A stretch of 26,706 nt of DNA from positions 1 to 26,706 of the IMG/VR virus record IMGVR_UViG_3300042922_001228; one strand, 5' to 3'. The translations under genes were made by a program, and so were the position numbers. The stretch is from a virus. The notes beneath the pieces were generated by a model. The model searched no databases, was not told the DNA's origin, and was given only the letters and a program-made list of their open reading frames with translations. Below are positions 1,852 to 7,089 of the stretch, one piece after another; the first letter of the stretch is position 1; each line of letters opens with the position of its first letter.

Positions 1852-2655
1852 TTAGTTTCTATTTAGCAAATGATAACGATCCATTGGAGGTAAATGCCAA
1901 GGATGAGTATCTATGCGTTTGTGGAGTTCGGCTCTCTTTTCTTTCTCGATGAATGACCAAGCTACAAAGCCACCATCATTGAAATAGTCATGGATTGCTG
2001 CGGCCATGTGTGGATTGATTCCTTTTACCGCAGGTCCAAATTGTCTCCACCACCCGCTTAACCAAGCTAGGTATATCGCCATGGCTCTAACATTGGTATC
2101 TAGTCCTGTATTACCGTTTTTATTGCTCATGAGAGCAATTAGGTTGTGTACATATTCAACAGCTACAGGAATTTGGTCAAATGGAATCTCATCTATACCT
2201 TCTACAGCAAACCGCTGGTGCACCAGTTTGTAGGCATCAGAGAAGTTCAGGTTTTTAGTTTTGGCCACTAGTAAGTGAATGGCATCGTTAAGTGATACAC
2301 GTTCAGATTTGTGAGTTTTATGTTTTGGTTGAACTTCCCGATCTAGAATATCTAAAACCCATTTACGGAATTCTTTAGCAATCGCAGTTTTTGCGAACAT
2401 AGCAATAAGATGGCAACCTCGAAGTGAAAAAACTCTTATAGATTGCAAACCACCATTTGTTTTCATTTCTACTAACCGAGTCATATTTGTAGAAAACTCT
2501 TCAATATTTCGATTAAACAGTTTAATTACAGCCGTTTCAGGATTTGCATATCTTAAGGCTAACCCAATTTGGGTTGCCCCTATCCATACCTGCCCATCAT
2601 CTATAGAAATTGGGTATAAGTTCACTTCATTAAATGTTAATGCTAGACTTGTCAT
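1852..2655 (-). CDS. ant: Phage antirepressor, BRO-N plus P22-AR-C type
   Basis: The protein has 267 residues. Residues about 8-108 look like a BRO-N DNA/protein-binding domain (VNLYPISIDDGQVWIGATQI, then SIRVFSLRGCHLIAMFAKT). Residues about 118-185 resemble the P22 antirepressor C-terminal domain (DAYKLVHQRFAVEGIDEIPF). An extra tail of about 80 residues follows. Antirepressors of this type inactivate the prophage repressor and trigger lytic growth. I chose ATG at 2655 because GAAGAG precedes it by about 7 bases; an in-frame GTG at 2670 has no such site. It lies 65 bp downstream of the Arc-like gene on the same strand, as ant follows arc in P22. Translation is probably controlled by the predicted antisense RNA that covers its ribosome binding site. 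The family call is firm; the immI role is inferred from context. Confidence 0.85.
   Translation of the reverse strand: MTSLALTFNEVNLYPISIDDGQVWIGATQIGLALRYANPETAVIKLFNRNIEEFSTNMTRLVEMKTNGGLQSIRVFSLRGCHLIAMFAKTAIAKEFRKWVLDILDREVQPKHKTHKSERVSLNDAIHLLVAKTKNLNFSDAYKLVHQRFAVEGIDEIPFDQIPVAVEYVHNLIALMSNKNGNTGLDTNVRAMAIYLAWLSGWWRQFGPAVKGINPHMAAAIHDYFNDGGFVAWSFIEKEKRAELHKRIDTHPWHLPPMDRYHLLNRN
2621..2649 (+). promoter_or_regulatory. Predicted promoter of the sar-like antisense RNA
   Basis: TTCACT at 2621-2626, a 17-base spacer and TAGACT at 2644-2649, with an extended TG one base before the -10 box. Both boxes match consensus at 4 of 6 positions. It lies inside the 5' end of ant, pointing away from it, where P22 has Psar. 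Predicted transcription start is about 2656. Confidence 0.4.
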
Positions 2656-2722
2656 ATCTGATCTCTTCACCGAGTTGGATAGAAGCCCCTAGTCCGCCAA
2701 GATTCAGGGGCTTCATTGTTTT
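2656..2722 (+). ncRNA. Predicted sar-like antisense RNA over the ant ribosome binding site
   Basis: A transcript from about 2656 would be complementary to the ant leader, including the GAAGAG ribosome binding site. It would end in a perfect 9-bp hairpin, GAAGCCCCT at 2682-2690 and AGGGGCTTC at 2706-2714, followed by ATTGTTTT. The expected length is about 65-70 nt. P22 encodes a small antisense RNA, sar, of about this size in the same arc-ant intercistronic position, and it represses ant translation. The hairpin is seen directly; the RNA itself is inferred. Confidence 0.45.
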
Positions 2723-2879
2723 AATTCGTTTGAGTTAATAACTTGGAACGAGTTTCTTCTAAAGTTTTAACAATAAAATTATTTAAAGAGCGTCCATCTT
2801 TTTTCGCCTGCTCTTTTAAAAAAATTTTTAAATCTTGTGGTAGACGCAAGTTATATTGCGGATTTTTATGCTTACTCAT
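2721..2879 (-). CDS. Arc-like ribbon-helix-helix repressor, 52 residues
   Basis: This short gene reads MSKHKNPQYNLRLPQDLK at its N-terminus and has GRSLNNFIVKTLEE further on. That is the Arc/Mnt ribbon-helix-helix pattern: a beta strand (QYNLRLP) for major-groove contact, then a helix with GRSxN and a second helix. P22 Arc has 53 residues with QFNLRWP and GRSVNSEI at the equivalent places. ATG at 2879 is preceded by GAGAAG. It is the first gene of the arc-ant transcript and probably damps it by binding the operators upstream. The family is clear; the role is from the immI layout. Confidence 0.85.
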   Translation of the reverse strand: MSKHKNPQYNLRLPQDLKIFLKEQAKKDGRSLNNFIVKTLEETRSKLLTQTN

Positions 2880-2898
2880 AATTTCTTCTCAAAATAAT

Positions 2899-2936
2899 AG
2901 CCGATGGCTACCATTTAAATTTAATACCCATCGGCT
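2899..2936. promoter_or_regulatory. Operator-like repeats in the arc-ant promoter
   Basis: AGCCGATGG at 2899-2907 and CCATCGGCT at 2928-2936 form a perfect 9-bp inverted repeat. The 10-bp sequence GGCTACCATT also occurs twice as a direct repeat (2906-2915 and 2933-2942). The repeats straddle the predicted -10 box of the minus-strand promoter, so a repressor bound here would block arc-ant transcription. Confidence 0.55.
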
Positions 2937-2947
2937 ACCATTGTCAA
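2919..2947 (-). promoter_or_regulatory. Predicted arc-ant promoter (Pant-like)
   Basis: On the minus strand a consensus TTGACA (2947-2942), a 17-base spacer and TTAAAT (2924-2919) form a sigma-70 promoter with its start near 2912, about 33 bp before the Arc-like ATG. Its -35 box overlaps that of the divergent promoter. Confidence 0.55.
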
Positions 2948-2969
2948 TACCCACTAGACACTATTTAAT
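2941..2969 (+). promoter_or_regulatory. Predicted mnt-like promoter (Pmnt-like)
   Basis: TTGTCA at 2941-2946, a 17-base spacer and TTTAAT at 2964-2969; both boxes match consensus at 5 of 6 positions. Predicted start is about 2976, just before the palindrome at 2979-2994. The -35 boxes of the two divergent promoters overlap, so their use should be mutually exclusive. Confidence 0.55.
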
Positions 2970-2978
2970 ATGTATACA

Positions 2979-2994
2979 TGTCCACATGTGGACA
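2979..2994. promoter_or_regulatory. Perfect 16-bp palindrome at the mnt-like transcription start
   Basis: TGTCCACATGTGGACA is a perfect palindrome about 4-19 bp after the predicted plus-strand start. It differs in sequence from the repeats at 2899-2936, which suggests that a second repressor, or a different contact mode, acts here. Autoregulation of the Mnt-like gene is the simplest idea. Confidence 0.55.
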
Positions 2995-3035
2995 ATTAAT
3001 TGATTTATTCTTTCTACTTCAAGAGTATACAGAGC

Positions 3036-3320
3036 ATGAGTAGCGGTCATTTAAATGCACAATATAATTTAAGACTTCCTGATGACTTGAAGCAAAAAAT
3101 TGCTCAATCTGCAAAAGAACTGAACCGATCAATGAACGCGGATATAGTGGCTAGACTCGAAAGCAGCTTTGAACATAAAAACATTGATAATTTGGAAGAT
3201 ATTCCTTTAGAAAAACTTTTATCTGCAGTAATGGAGAAATTAGGAAAAAACTCTTTGAGCCTAACGCGTGAAGAAATTGCACGGGGTAAAGAGTTAGCAA
3301 AAAAAAATGAAAAAAACTAA
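3036..3320 (+). CDS. Mnt-like Arc-family repressor, 94 residues
   Basis: The N-terminus contains QYNLRLPDDLK and LNRSMNADIVARLE, the ribbon-helix-helix signature of Arc/Mnt proteins. P22 Mnt (82 residues) has FNFRMP and GRSMNSEL at the same spacing. A charged C-terminal half, about residues 50-94, could be the oligomerising helix found in Mnt. The gene is divergent from the arc-ant pair, as mnt is in P22, and probably holds the module silent in the lysogen. ATG at 3036 fits the family N-terminus; a TTG at 3000 would add 12 unrelated residues. Its ribosome binding site is weak. The pairing with Arc and Ant supports the role but does not prove it. Confidence 0.8.
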   Translation: MSSGHLNAQYNLRLPDDLKQKIAQSAKELNRSMNADIVARLESSFEHKNIDNLEDIPLEKLLSAVMEKLGKNSLSLTREEIARGKELAKKNEKN

Positions 3321-3557: not shown

Positions 3558-4682
3558 TTGAATTTATTTACCCCAATTGTTAATTCTGATAAACAACATG
3601 ATATTTTTAAACTACTAATTAATCCACAATTATATGCTGAGAGAGATGTTATTAATGATTGGGCGAGTGGATTTATAGATAGAGATAAAAAATTTGTAAA
3701 AGAATTTCAAACTACATTTGAATCATCATTTTTAGAACTTTATTTAAATAAAATATTAAAAGAAGATAATGTAAAATTGAATTTTTCATATCATGCACCC
3801 GACTTTGTTTGTGATAAAGATGGTGAAGAATTTTGTATTGAAGCAACTATAGCCAATCCAGAACAAGACGGTCTTCCAGCATATGGTTTTACTGAAAGTC
3901 ATATATCTTTTGATATTGATTTCGCAGAGTTTAATAGAAAGTCTATCATTAGAATTGCAAACTCCATCATTGTAAAAGCAAGAAAATTTAAAAGTTCTTA
4001 TAGTAATTTATCTCATGTATTAGGTAAGCCCTTTTTACTTGGATTAAACTCTTTTGATAGACCACATTCGCACTTTACTGGGCACCGTGGAATCATTGCT
4101 GTTCTCTATGGAATTTATTTAAATGAGGAAAAAGCTATAGCTGAAAACCTAAGTTTTATCCCTCAAGAAAGGATGGATTTTGTTGAAAAAAGTAATGGAG
4201 CTGAAATTCCTTTAGGTTTCTTTACCACACCAGAATATGAATATATTAGTGCTATTATTTATAATCCATATGCAACTTGGGGGAAAGTACGTGCACTAGC
4301 TGAAGTCTCTGATACTAATAAATATTGTATATTTAATGCGATATATACTAGAGACAATGAAATGGAAGAAAGCTTAATTCCGGATATTCATACTGGGATA
4401 ATAAAAGAAAAATATAAGGAGTCAATATTTGATGGACTTTATGTATTGCATAATCCATTTGCAAAATATCCTATGCCAGCAAACTTATTTAATGACCCTT
4501 TAATAGCTCATATGATTATAGATGAATCTGGTCATTTAGTTGAGCGAATTACTGGTAAGTTTTTACTATCTCGTAGCTTAATTTGCCCAGACTCTCAAAC
4601 ATTACCTCAAAAATATAGAGAAGCTCTAGATAATTTTATTGAAAACTTAAAAAAAAATTATACATATAAAAAAGCACCCTAG
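3558..4682 (+). CDS. PD-(D/E)xK-like nuclease-fold protein, unknown function
   Basis: The 374-residue protein shows the order expected of a restriction-endonuclease fold: a helix with FESSFLELYL (residues 54-63, Glu55 or Glu60), then APDF (Asp82), then FCIEAT (Glu95). The usual Lys of the ExK motif is replaced by Thr97; Lys140 in a following helix (NSIIVKARKFK) could substitute, as in families with a migrated lysine. No signal peptide or membrane segment is seen. The start is TTG at 3558, supported by GGAG 7 bases upstream. The gene stands alone, facing a DUF4062 gene across a shared terminator, in a block more AT-rich than the tail genes. It is likely accessory cargo, possibly anti-phage. 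The fold call is moderate and the function is unknown. Confidence 0.6.
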   Translation: MNLFTPIVNSDKQHDIFKLLINPQLYAERDVINDWASGFIDRDKKFVKEFQTTFESSFLELYLNKILKEDNVKLNFSYHAPDFVCDKDGEEFCIEATIANPEQDGLPAYGFTESHISFDIDFAEFNRKSIIRIANSIIVKARKFKSSYSNLSHVLGKPFLLGLNSFDRPHSHFTGHRGIIAVLYGIYLNEEKAIAENLSFIPQERMDFVEKSNGAEIPLGFFTTPEYEYISAIIYNPYATWGKVRALAEVSDTNKYCIFNAIYTRDNEMEESLIPDIHTGIIKEKYKESIFDGLYVLHNPFAKYPMPANLFNDPLIAHMIIDESGHLVERITGKFLLSRSLICPDSQTLPQKYREALDNFIENLKKNYTYKKAP

Positions 4683-4716: not shown

Positions 4717-5892
4717 TTAATTTTCAGAATCATTTTCATCATCTCTCTGTATTAATATTTTTTCATTATTTATAGAAATATAATATTCAAATGGTTCTCT
4801 TATATAACGTAAAAATGACATAGATGGCCGTATATCAACTAATGCATCAACAATTATTTCTTTTGTACTTTCATTCAATTTAATAAAAGAATCCCAATCT
4901 AATGAAATATTATTAAGAAAATCTATGGGCATTCTTAACTCAAAAAATGTTCTATCTTCTTTAATTAATAATACTTTTGATCTGATACCGGGACTCCTAA
5001 AATTAAACATTATTTCAGGATGTTGATTTAAATCTATAATCTCTACAATTCCTACATGTTTTAAAAGATTATCCCACGAGTAAAGCCCTTTTGTTAGTTC
5101 TGAATTGCTTAAACCAATAACTTTTAAAAAATCAACAAGACGTCTATATTTAACTACTCCTCGAGCGATCTCTCTTTCGTTAGTATTGCTAATTGATGTG
5201 ATAATTGCTGTTTTTAAATCTTCAAATTGTTCTGTAAGGTTTTCAATACGTTTAGCTTCAAATGCTTTATTTCTTTGTTCTTGAACTAGCCTTTGAAACA
5301 GAGATGACCACTGTCTTTTTAAAATATCTTCAATATCTTGGAGTTTAGAAAAAGGATGAACACTATTTCCTTTAATTCTATGCCGTAGGAAATTAATAAA
5401 CTCAAAAATAAATAAAGCTGTATGAGGCTTTTCAATTGATGGAAAAATAATTTCTTCTATAATTGGCTTATCTTTATTTTTTTCATACAGTGAATGATCA
5501 TGCATGACACCTGCATCAATAAAAGTATAAATAGGAATATCTGATTGAACAGCTTTAAGTATTTCTAATTGGGTTATAGACAAATTTTCTTGCTTCTTTA
5601 GAGTTTCGATGCTACGACTTTCTTTTTTTAAGTTTTCAAAATCTAAGCCTGCCAATGCATCGGGCACTACTTTACCACCAAATCTTGAACCAATTATTAA
5701 TACAACTACATCAGCAGAACCAACCTCATCTACACAACTTGTATGAGTATGAGTTCTGGGATCATAAAGTAAATCACTATAGTCACTCATGAATGGTTCA
5801 TGACCAAGATTTTGTATAAAAATACGTAATTGCGAGCGAATAACTGATAGATCATAACAAGTAGACGAAACAAAAACCCTCAATCCAGCCAT
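4717..5892 (-). CDS. DUF4062-domain protein, possible defence sensor
   Basis: The 391-residue protein opens with a DUF4062 signature: LRVFVSSTCYDL (about residues 4-15), then SADVVVLIIGSRFGG (about 62-76) and SITQLEILKA (about 104-113). DUF4062 is a Rossmann-like, TIR-related domain often fused to STAND NTPases or other effectors in conflict systems. Here no NTPase P-loop is visible. Instead a likely coiled coil follows (about residues 195-235), then a C-terminal domain I do not recognise. I chose ATG at 5892 because GGGGAG lies just upstream; a TTG at 5904 would destroy that spacing. The gene has its own strand and terminator, like a moron. Domain identity is confident; an anti-phage role is inference. 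Confidence 0.75.
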   Translation of the reverse strand: MAGLRVFVSSTCYDLSVIRSQLRIFIQNLGHEPFMSDYSDLLYDPRTHTHTSCVDEVGSADVVVLIIGSRFGGKVVPDALAGLDFENLKKESRSIETLKKQENLSITQLEILKAVQSDIPIYTFIDAGVMHDHSLYEKNKDKPIIEEIIFPSIEKPHTALFIFEFINFLRHRIKGNSVHPFSKLQDIEDILKRQWSSLFQRLVQEQRNKAFEAKRIENLTEQFEDLKTAIITSISNTNEREIARGVVKYRRLVDFLKVIGLSNSELTKGLYSWDNLLKHVGIVEIIDLNQHPEIMFNFRSPGIRSKVLLIKEDRTFFELRMPIDFLNNISLDWDSFIKLNESTKEIIVDALVDIRPSMSFLRYIREPFEYYISINNEKILIQRDDENDSEN

Positions 5893-6046
5893 AACTCTCC
5901 CCAAAAAGATAATTTATTAAAAAACGTTAAAACTTAGAATATTTAATCAAGCGTTACTTAAAAAGTTACTTATAATATTAAACTTACTAAATTAATTATT
6001 CTTCGTTTTAAGACTAATATAATGATTTGTCAACCAAAATATTCGA

Positions 6047-6177: not shown

Positions 6178-6273
6178 AGTAGTATTATAAAAAATATTTA
6201 TTTTTAAATGCACTATTTAGATGTATTTAATTATTTACAGCCTACTTAAAACTGATAATTGGACTTAAGAAAT

Positions 6274-7089
6274 ATGAAAAAATTGGGTGTATGTAAACTA
6301 ACTGGTGAATATGGCCAATTTATTAAAGCCCATTTAATCCCTCAAGCTTTAACAAAACCAGAAATAAATGGGAAGGTTATGAGAGAAATAGGCGAAGGCT
6401 ATAGAGCAAAAAAAGCTACTTCAAGTTGGTATGATGCAGAAATAGTAACTCAAAATGGAGAAGATATACTTACAGAGTTCGATACTGCAGCAATAAGAGA
6501 ATTACGGAAACACAAATTGATTTGGAGCAGTTGGAACGGAAACGAGTTGCCAGATGATTTATTAACAAAAATGAATCATAGTTATGGAATTCGAAAACTT
6601 GATGAGATAGATCATAAATCATTAAGATTATTTTTTTTAAGTTTATTATGGCGCTCATGTGCTTCAAAAAGAGTTGGATTCAATGAAATATCCTTACCAG
6701 AAGATGATATAGCAAACTTAAAAAAAATGTTGATAAACAGAGATGCAGGGCAATATTTTTACTTTCCAATCTTACTTGTACAATTGTCAACCAAAGGGAA
6801 AATACATAATCACACACCTTTAATAGAAGACTTTACTGTTGAACCTATTTATGGACAAGGCCCTGAGCAAACTTTTAAAATCGTGCGATTCTACTTCGAT
6901 GGCTTAGTTGTGCATATACGTTTAACTAAAGATGAAGAGAAGACTAGAAACTCAGGGAATGTATTTATAGGAAGAAGTAAAGAATTATTATTAACCACAA
7001 TAACTTATGATGAGTCATTTCAAAAACAAAATATGCAAGCAATTCAGGACCGCCATCAATTAGAAGCGAAAAACGGCCTTTTAAAATAG
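6274..7089 (+). CDS. HNH-like protein with degenerate zinc site, unknown function
   Basis: The 271-residue protein begins MKKLGVCKLTGEYG followed by FIKAHLIPQALTKP. A cysteine shortly before an (A/S)H(L/I)IP(K/Q)AL motif is the layout of a class of HNH-type proteins in which His of HLIP is the catalytic base candidate. Only one cysteine is present here, so a complete treble-clef zinc site is not evident. The rest, with W and Y residues (SSWYD, LIWSSWNG) and a basic patch near LLWRSCASKR, is not recognised. ATG at 6274 has only a weak AAGA upstream; TTG at 6259 is an alternative. The gene stands alone on the plus strand between the relic at 6047 and the lysis genes. Probably phage accessory or defence cargo; nuclease activity is uncertain. 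Confidence 0.55.
   Translation: MKKLGVCKLTGEYGQFIKAHLIPQALTKPEINGKVMREIGEGYRAKKATSSWYDAEIVTQNGEDILTEFDTAAIRELRKHKLIWSSWNGNELPDDLLTKMNHSYGIRKLDEIDHKSLRLFFLSLLWRSCASKRVGFNEISLPEDDIANLKKMLINRDAGQYFYFPILLVQLSTKGKIHNHTPLIEDFTVEPIYGQGPEQTFKIVRFYFDGLVVHIRLTKDEEKTRNSGNVFIGRSKELLLTTITYDESFQKQNMQAIQDRHQLEAKNGLLK

Follow-up and report, generated by a model that had tools for sequence, protein, structure and literature searches.

A P22-type immI variant with a predicted Sar-like antisense RNA in an Acinetobacter prophage

The window analysed here, a 26.7-kb viral record, is a prophage of Acinetobacter. From the left it carries host-like DNA, the antirepressor gene ant and an arc-like repressor gene on the minus strand, a divergent mnt-like repressor gene on the plus strand and a PD-T7-5 defence gene, followed rightward by a DUF4062 gene, an unknown gene, an endolysin gene and tail genes. 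The initial annotation had read ant and the two repressor genes as a complete immI switch. All three frames are open at the positions it gave, and the mnt-like gene does diverge from arc-like/ant with overlapping back-to-back promoters; the genes and promoters were borne out, but a fourth immI part, a Sar-like antisense RNA, had been missed. The cassette comprises the following features.

1852..2655, minus strand: ant, antirepressor, 267 aa from ATG 2655; N-terminal BRO-N, C-terminal half P22-Ant-like
2641..2649, plus strand: Psar, putative promoter with extended -10 TGCTAGACT overlapping ant codons 3-5 and a weak -35 TTCACT at 2621-2626
about 2656..2722, plus strand: predicted sar-like antisense RNA, ~67 nt, over the ant ribosome-binding site; identified by the R2 model, covariation and fold z
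2656-2680, plus strand: 5' hairpin of the sar-like RNA, anti-Shine-Dalgarno in the loop
2682-2714, plus strand: terminator hairpin of the sar-like RNA, followed by a T-rich end at 2715-2722
2721..2879, minus strand: arc-like repressor, 52 aa; Pfam Arc 8e-8; reading head Q8-N10-R12
2898..2910, minus strand: candidate operator O3 TAGCCATCGGCTA, +37 from the Pant -35 start; P22 Mnt operator position
2919..2947, minus strand: Pant, -35 TTGACA at 2947-2942, -10 TTAAAT at 2924-2919
2925..2937, minus strand: candidate operator O2 TAGCCGATGGGTA, within Pant between -35 and -10; P22 Arc operator position
2941..2969, plus strand: Pmnt, identified by inspection, -35 TTGTCA at 2941-2946, -10 TTTAAT at 2964-2969; overlaps Pant
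3036..3320, plus strand: mnt-like repressor, 94 aa; Pfam Arc 2.4e-10; reading head Q9-N11-R13; model resembling AmrZ/Arc

The earlier placement of the cassette next to the lysis end holds only loosely: it occupies the record's host-side end, and the endolysin gene is 4 kb further in, beyond the PD-T7-5, DUF4062 and unknown genes. The gene beside the mnt-like gene (3558-4682, plus strand) codes for a full-length homologue of PD-T7-5 anti-phage defence (PADLOC E 8.6e-119), and one relative (L017) also has a distant PD-T7-5 copy near its ant cassette. The DUF4062 gene (4717-5904, minus strand) and the unknown gene (6259-7089, plus strand; weak phrog_7075) are likely to be further accessory genes. 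In the host flank, a GntP-type permease recognised by inspection occupies two open frames on the minus strand (42-368 and 368-1576), possibly split by a frameshift. Between ant and the host-like DNA, 29 nt (1816-1844) resemble the 3' end of ssrA. Simple integration into ssrA was rejected, because the ssrA-like 29 nt by ant in A. calcoaceticus DSM 30006 (G001) sit 1 Mb away from an intact ssrA. No main repressor locus, the presumed target of Ant, was found within the 26.7-kb fragment, so the role of a second immunity region that the initial annotation gave the cassette is putative.

The ant product matches Pfam BRO-N (E about 2.5e-10) and a PHROG antirepressor family (E 3.5e-58). Its homology to P22 Ant does not extend over the full length; it is confined to the C-terminal half, which aligns with P22 Ant residues 128-256 at 34% over 131 residues (BLASTP E 5e-20). 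As judged by these matches, Ant is a chimera with BRO-N in front and the P22-Ant C-terminal half behind. Its start is most likely ATG 2653-2655, not GTG 2670, because relatives begin there and a Shine-Dalgarno sequence lies 7 nt upstream.

Pfam, PDB sequence and structure-prediction checks agree that both small genes encode ribbon-helix-helix proteins, as originally proposed. Both exceed the gathering cut-off of Pfam Arc (PF03869, 20.4 bits), the arc-like protein with 32.4 bits and the mnt-like protein with 40.5. Among PDB sequences, the arc-like protein matches Arc (E 1e-5 for the permuted pArc, 5e-4 for the wild type) and Mnt (E 1e-3), and the mnt-like protein matches AmrZ (E 2e-5) and pArc (E 1e-3). 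AlphaFold models both as two-helix ribbon-helix-helix monomers, the mnt-like model having its best structural matches in AmrZ and Arc at Foldseek E-values above 0.01. The Q, N and R of the reading head are invariant in an alignment of the Arc-like protein of the window, its 6 relatives and P22 Arc. The mnt-like protein is not an Mnt proper with H-N-R head and C-terminal tetramerisation domain: its head is Q-N-R, BLASTP coverage against P22 Mnt is limited to residues 7-38, and helices are predicted at its C-terminus in the monomer model.

For Pant, the promoter scanner chooses an 18-nt spacing. With the first base of the Pant -35 (TTGACA) as the reference point, the palindromes O2 and O3 start at +10 and +37; in the P22 comparison sequence (immI, X01916) the corresponding offsets are +9 for the Arc site TAGAAGCACTCTA and +37 for the Mnt site GTCCACGGTGGAC. 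The positions of the candidate operators are consistent with the P22-type layout, in which the Arc site lies in the Pant spacer and the Mnt site at the start site. Both share the half-site TAGCC, whereas in P22 the half-site is TAGA for Arc and, as PMC2726951 confirms, GGTCCAC for Mnt; this supports in silico the new operator specificity that the initial annotation had predicted. An automatic scan over the Mnt-like genes of all fetched loci returned, for most of these genes, a palindrome near +35 to +38, with a sequence that shifts with the Mnt-like reading head.

Head E-K-R: palindrome TCCCCAATGGGGA or ACCCCACTGGGGT
Head A-N-R: palindrome TGTCCAGTGGACA
Head Q-K-R: palindrome TACCTACTAGGTA
Head Q-N-R: palindrome TAGCCAGTGGCTA
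Head H-N-R (P22): palindrome GTCCACGGTGGAC

A Fisher test of head against operator was chosen after the data were seen and is not counted as proof. The rule that arc presence accompanies the spacer operator fails, as the A-N-R group has a spacer site and no arc, and the rule that both repressors always have one head fails at locus L078. The mnt leader also contains a perfect 16-bp palindrome, TGTCCACATGTGGACA (2979-2994), which resembles the TGTCCA half-sites found in A-N-R relatives but is spaced differently. It was rejected as a conserved part of the cassette because none of its 5 exact matches in viral contigs is near ant or arc.

The arc-ant gap holds GAAGCCCCT-N15-AGGGGCTTC, with a T-rich stretch after it on the plus strand. 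The same hairpin arrangement, with other stem sequences, precedes ant in nearly all Acinetobacter relatives, and in folds of their antisense strands hairpin 1 shows an anti-Shine-Dalgarno and hairpin 2 is a terminator. A first covariance model (R1), made from a plain MAFFT alignment, misaligned the hairpins and kept 4 pairs; models R2 and R3 were used instead. R2, built from eight relatives with the window left out, matches the window at 2653-2721 on the plus strand with 30 bits (E 4e-4 in the set searched). Across 44 distinct sequences, which are mutually related and whose alignment was fitted to the model, 95.8% of cells are paired and double changes occur in 19 of 20 pairs; in the 5' hairpin over the ribosome-binding site they occur in 10 of 11. 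The covariation score of these 44 sequences is 0.507, against 0.212 when shuffled and at most 0.104 with partners slid. In view of the fitted alignment, extra RNA tests were added. G-U exceeds A-C (which is G-U on the mRNA) by 108:10 on the antisense strand, again in fitted columns, and this excess places the RNA structure on that strand. The antisense strand has a more stable fold than its complement in 43 of the 44 sequences; a T-run follows the stem in 39/44 on the antisense strand and in 4/44 on the other. The window RNA folds with z = -3.8, and no Rfam 15 model matches its region at E <=1. By these comparisons, the sar-like RNA is a structurally conserved, widespread family of Acinetobacter prophages.

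The putative promoter of this RNA is embedded in the coding sequence that the RNA would control. Of 37 distinct ant genes, 35 have the extended -10 TGNTANANT over codons 3-5, against 1.2 expected from the synonymous codons used in the rest of these genes, and like tripeptides elsewhere in them match in 0/37; as the genes are related within families, these counts are not independent events, though the families differ from each other. The element is kept across the unrelated N-domains BRO-N, P22_AR_N and ORF6N, and in KilA-N ant genes except for the TG of the codon-5 part. P22 ant (MNSIA) has TGCTATACT over the same codons 3-5.

The hairpins upstream of ant might instead act in the sense mRNA leader, as a thermometer, attenuator or mask of the ribosome-binding site, with no antisense RNA involved. 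The mRNA strand does form them too, less stably and with the Shine-Dalgarno sequence inside the first, but the G-U/A-C ratio (108:10), the fold asymmetry (43/44), the T-run and the -10 element all point to the antisense strand, and we consider action in the sense leader very unlikely. The structure might also be a mere terminator facing out of ant, guarding against antisense read-through, with the -10 match resulting from conserved amino acids. The presence of this terminator hairpin, with the loop CCGCCAAGATT/CCGTCCAAAGTT, before other small phage genes (L147, L174, L177, L179, L180) speaks for such a terminator. Against it, the 5' hairpin over the ribosome-binding site covaries as well, with 10/11 pairs double-changed, and TGNTANANT is kept by codon choice, not by residues alone, even in unrelated N-domains, which leaves the terminator explanation unlikely.

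R2 matches 33 of 176 Acinetobacter species genomes at 36 places. At twenty-four of these an antirepressor-like gene has its start codon exactly there, and 2-3 more lie at degenerate ones, antirepressors having been called by Pfam in nine representatives (the window and P22 included) and by their N-termini in the others; the remaining ~9 have low scores and match mainly the terminator-like part. The broader model R3 finds matches in 66 of 349 Moraxellaceae genomes. No Acinetobacter Sar was found in the open-access literature. A terminator hairpin with the loop CCGTCCAAAGTT also lies antisense before genes for phrog_29933 small membrane proteins (L147, L174, L179, L180), perhaps a second antisense-controlled phage gene.

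A search for the mnt / arc-ant order in other Acinetobacter prophages, as the initial annotation had proposed, retrieved it at some dozen further loci (among them L108, L107, L003, L086, L115, L118, L117, L013, L016/L078). The arc gene is absent from most relatives, and loci without it far outnumber those with it. Acinetobacter sp. MB5 (L108) comes nearest to the unit as a whole, with 79% in arc, 60% in mnt and 65% in ant. In A. calcoaceticus DSM 30006 (L107) and the L002 contig, the match to the window runs from the host flank to base 2722, where the sar terminator ends and the arc stop codon lies, and no further; ant with sar is therefore exchanged as one block, and arc/mnt with the operators as another. 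One short viral contig (L057) carries two opposed copies of an ant/mnt cassette. On balance, we favour the view that a mobile cassette for antirepressor control has the Sar-like RNA as its constant core, that Psar imposes the opening residues x-x-[SNT]-[LI]-[ATS] on antirepressors whose N-domains are unrelated, and that the repressor/operator half is swapped independently.

Very probably, the cassette is a P22-type immI control unit for the antirepressor. Its genes, fold families and operator geometry, and the conserved RNA structure and promoter, are evident in silico; for repression, antisense inhibition and antirepression we follow the analogy of P22. In the lysogen, the Mnt-like protein on O3, and perhaps on O2, would keep Pant off and ant silent. 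Upon infection or derepression the arc-ant operon would be transcribed, and the Arc-like protein at O2 would then close Pant and probably Pmnt too. A constitutive antisense RNA of ~67 nt, starting inside ant and terminating between arc and ant, would pair with the ant ribosome-binding site and keep translation low. Ant itself would inactivate the main repressor of a prophage by binding it.

The division of labour between the repressors may differ from that of Arc and Mnt in P22, which read different sites. Since both heads are Q-N-R and O2 and O3 have one half-site, TAGCC, in common, the two proteins could share one specificity and act redundantly at the same two sites. We lean slightly against this redundancy: the flanking residues and N-arms differ between the two repressors, and L078 combines an A-N-R Mnt-like with a Q-N-R Arc-like protein. 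Truncated or frameshifted ant copies do occur elsewhere (L003, L074, L138) and would fit a decayed remnant without function; in the window, frames, promoters, operators and RNA pairs are all intact, and decay is highly improbable there.

Sar has been a textbook case of P22 since 1987. The present analysis turns it into a recognisable RNA family, whose structure is held by compensatory changes in dozens of Acinetobacter prophages, and many of these prophages reside in species among which are hospital pathogens. An antisense promoter within a coding start, constraining unrelated proteins, makes a clean case of overlapping codes. Two reading-head positions differ among the Mnt-like proteins, whose operators, at a fixed place, change along with the heads, so that the long-standing question of a beta-ribbon recognition code becomes testable with natural pairs; if the RNA is indeed the core of the cassette, it comes with a natural series of ribbon-helix-helix reading heads and their operators. 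The cassette further hints at ways in which Acinetobacter prophage induction and superinfection are controlled.

Among known systems, the Acinetobacter phages A1626.2, Ab105-2phi, Acba_23, vB_AbaS_Ftm and vB_AbaS_Gln have a BRO-N antirepressor with the same RNA, unannotated, at its start codon; no arc was seen in them, and their divergent gene encodes another small protein. The ant morons of epsilon34 and other P22-like phages are, like the window cassette, modular antirepressor units, with their own expression and a gene content that varies between phages (PMC2629481). Their hosts are Salmonella/enterobacteria, and no Acinetobacter member or Sar family was found in passages of that article. 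BRO-type antirepressors of Pantoea, Chimaeribacter, Serratia and Buttiauxella (L119, L130, L135, L137, L139) have at their start an antisense structure of two hairpins that comes close to P22 Sar. Enterobacterial intermediates score 20-22 bits with R3; the enterobacterial genome L139 gave no R3 match at the genome-wide threshold.

P22 immI (X01916: mnt, arc, sar, ant) has the gene order and orientation of the window, with a ribbon-helix-helix Arc and a divergent Mnt. P22 Sar (sequence also given in PMC13397905) is likewise an antisense RNA that folds into two hairpins and ends between arc and ant; it shares the terminator stem GAAGCCC/GGGCTTC with the window RNA and has its Psar -10 at the same position, ant codons 3-5. 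In the 1.6 kb of X01916, Sar is the top R3 match and exactly placed, at a marginal 10 bits (E 0.18); common descent of the two RNAs is likely, but this marginal score does not prove it. The differences lie in the proteins and their sites: the Ant N-domain is P22_AR_N in P22 and BRO-N in the window, the Mnt head is H-N-R in P22 whereas both window repressors read Q-N-R, the Mnt-like C-terminus is unlike that of P22 Mnt, and the candidate operators have TAGCC half-sites unlike those of P22. As far as its predicted parts tell, the cassette is a variant of the P22-type immI built around a BRO-N/P22-Ant chimera.
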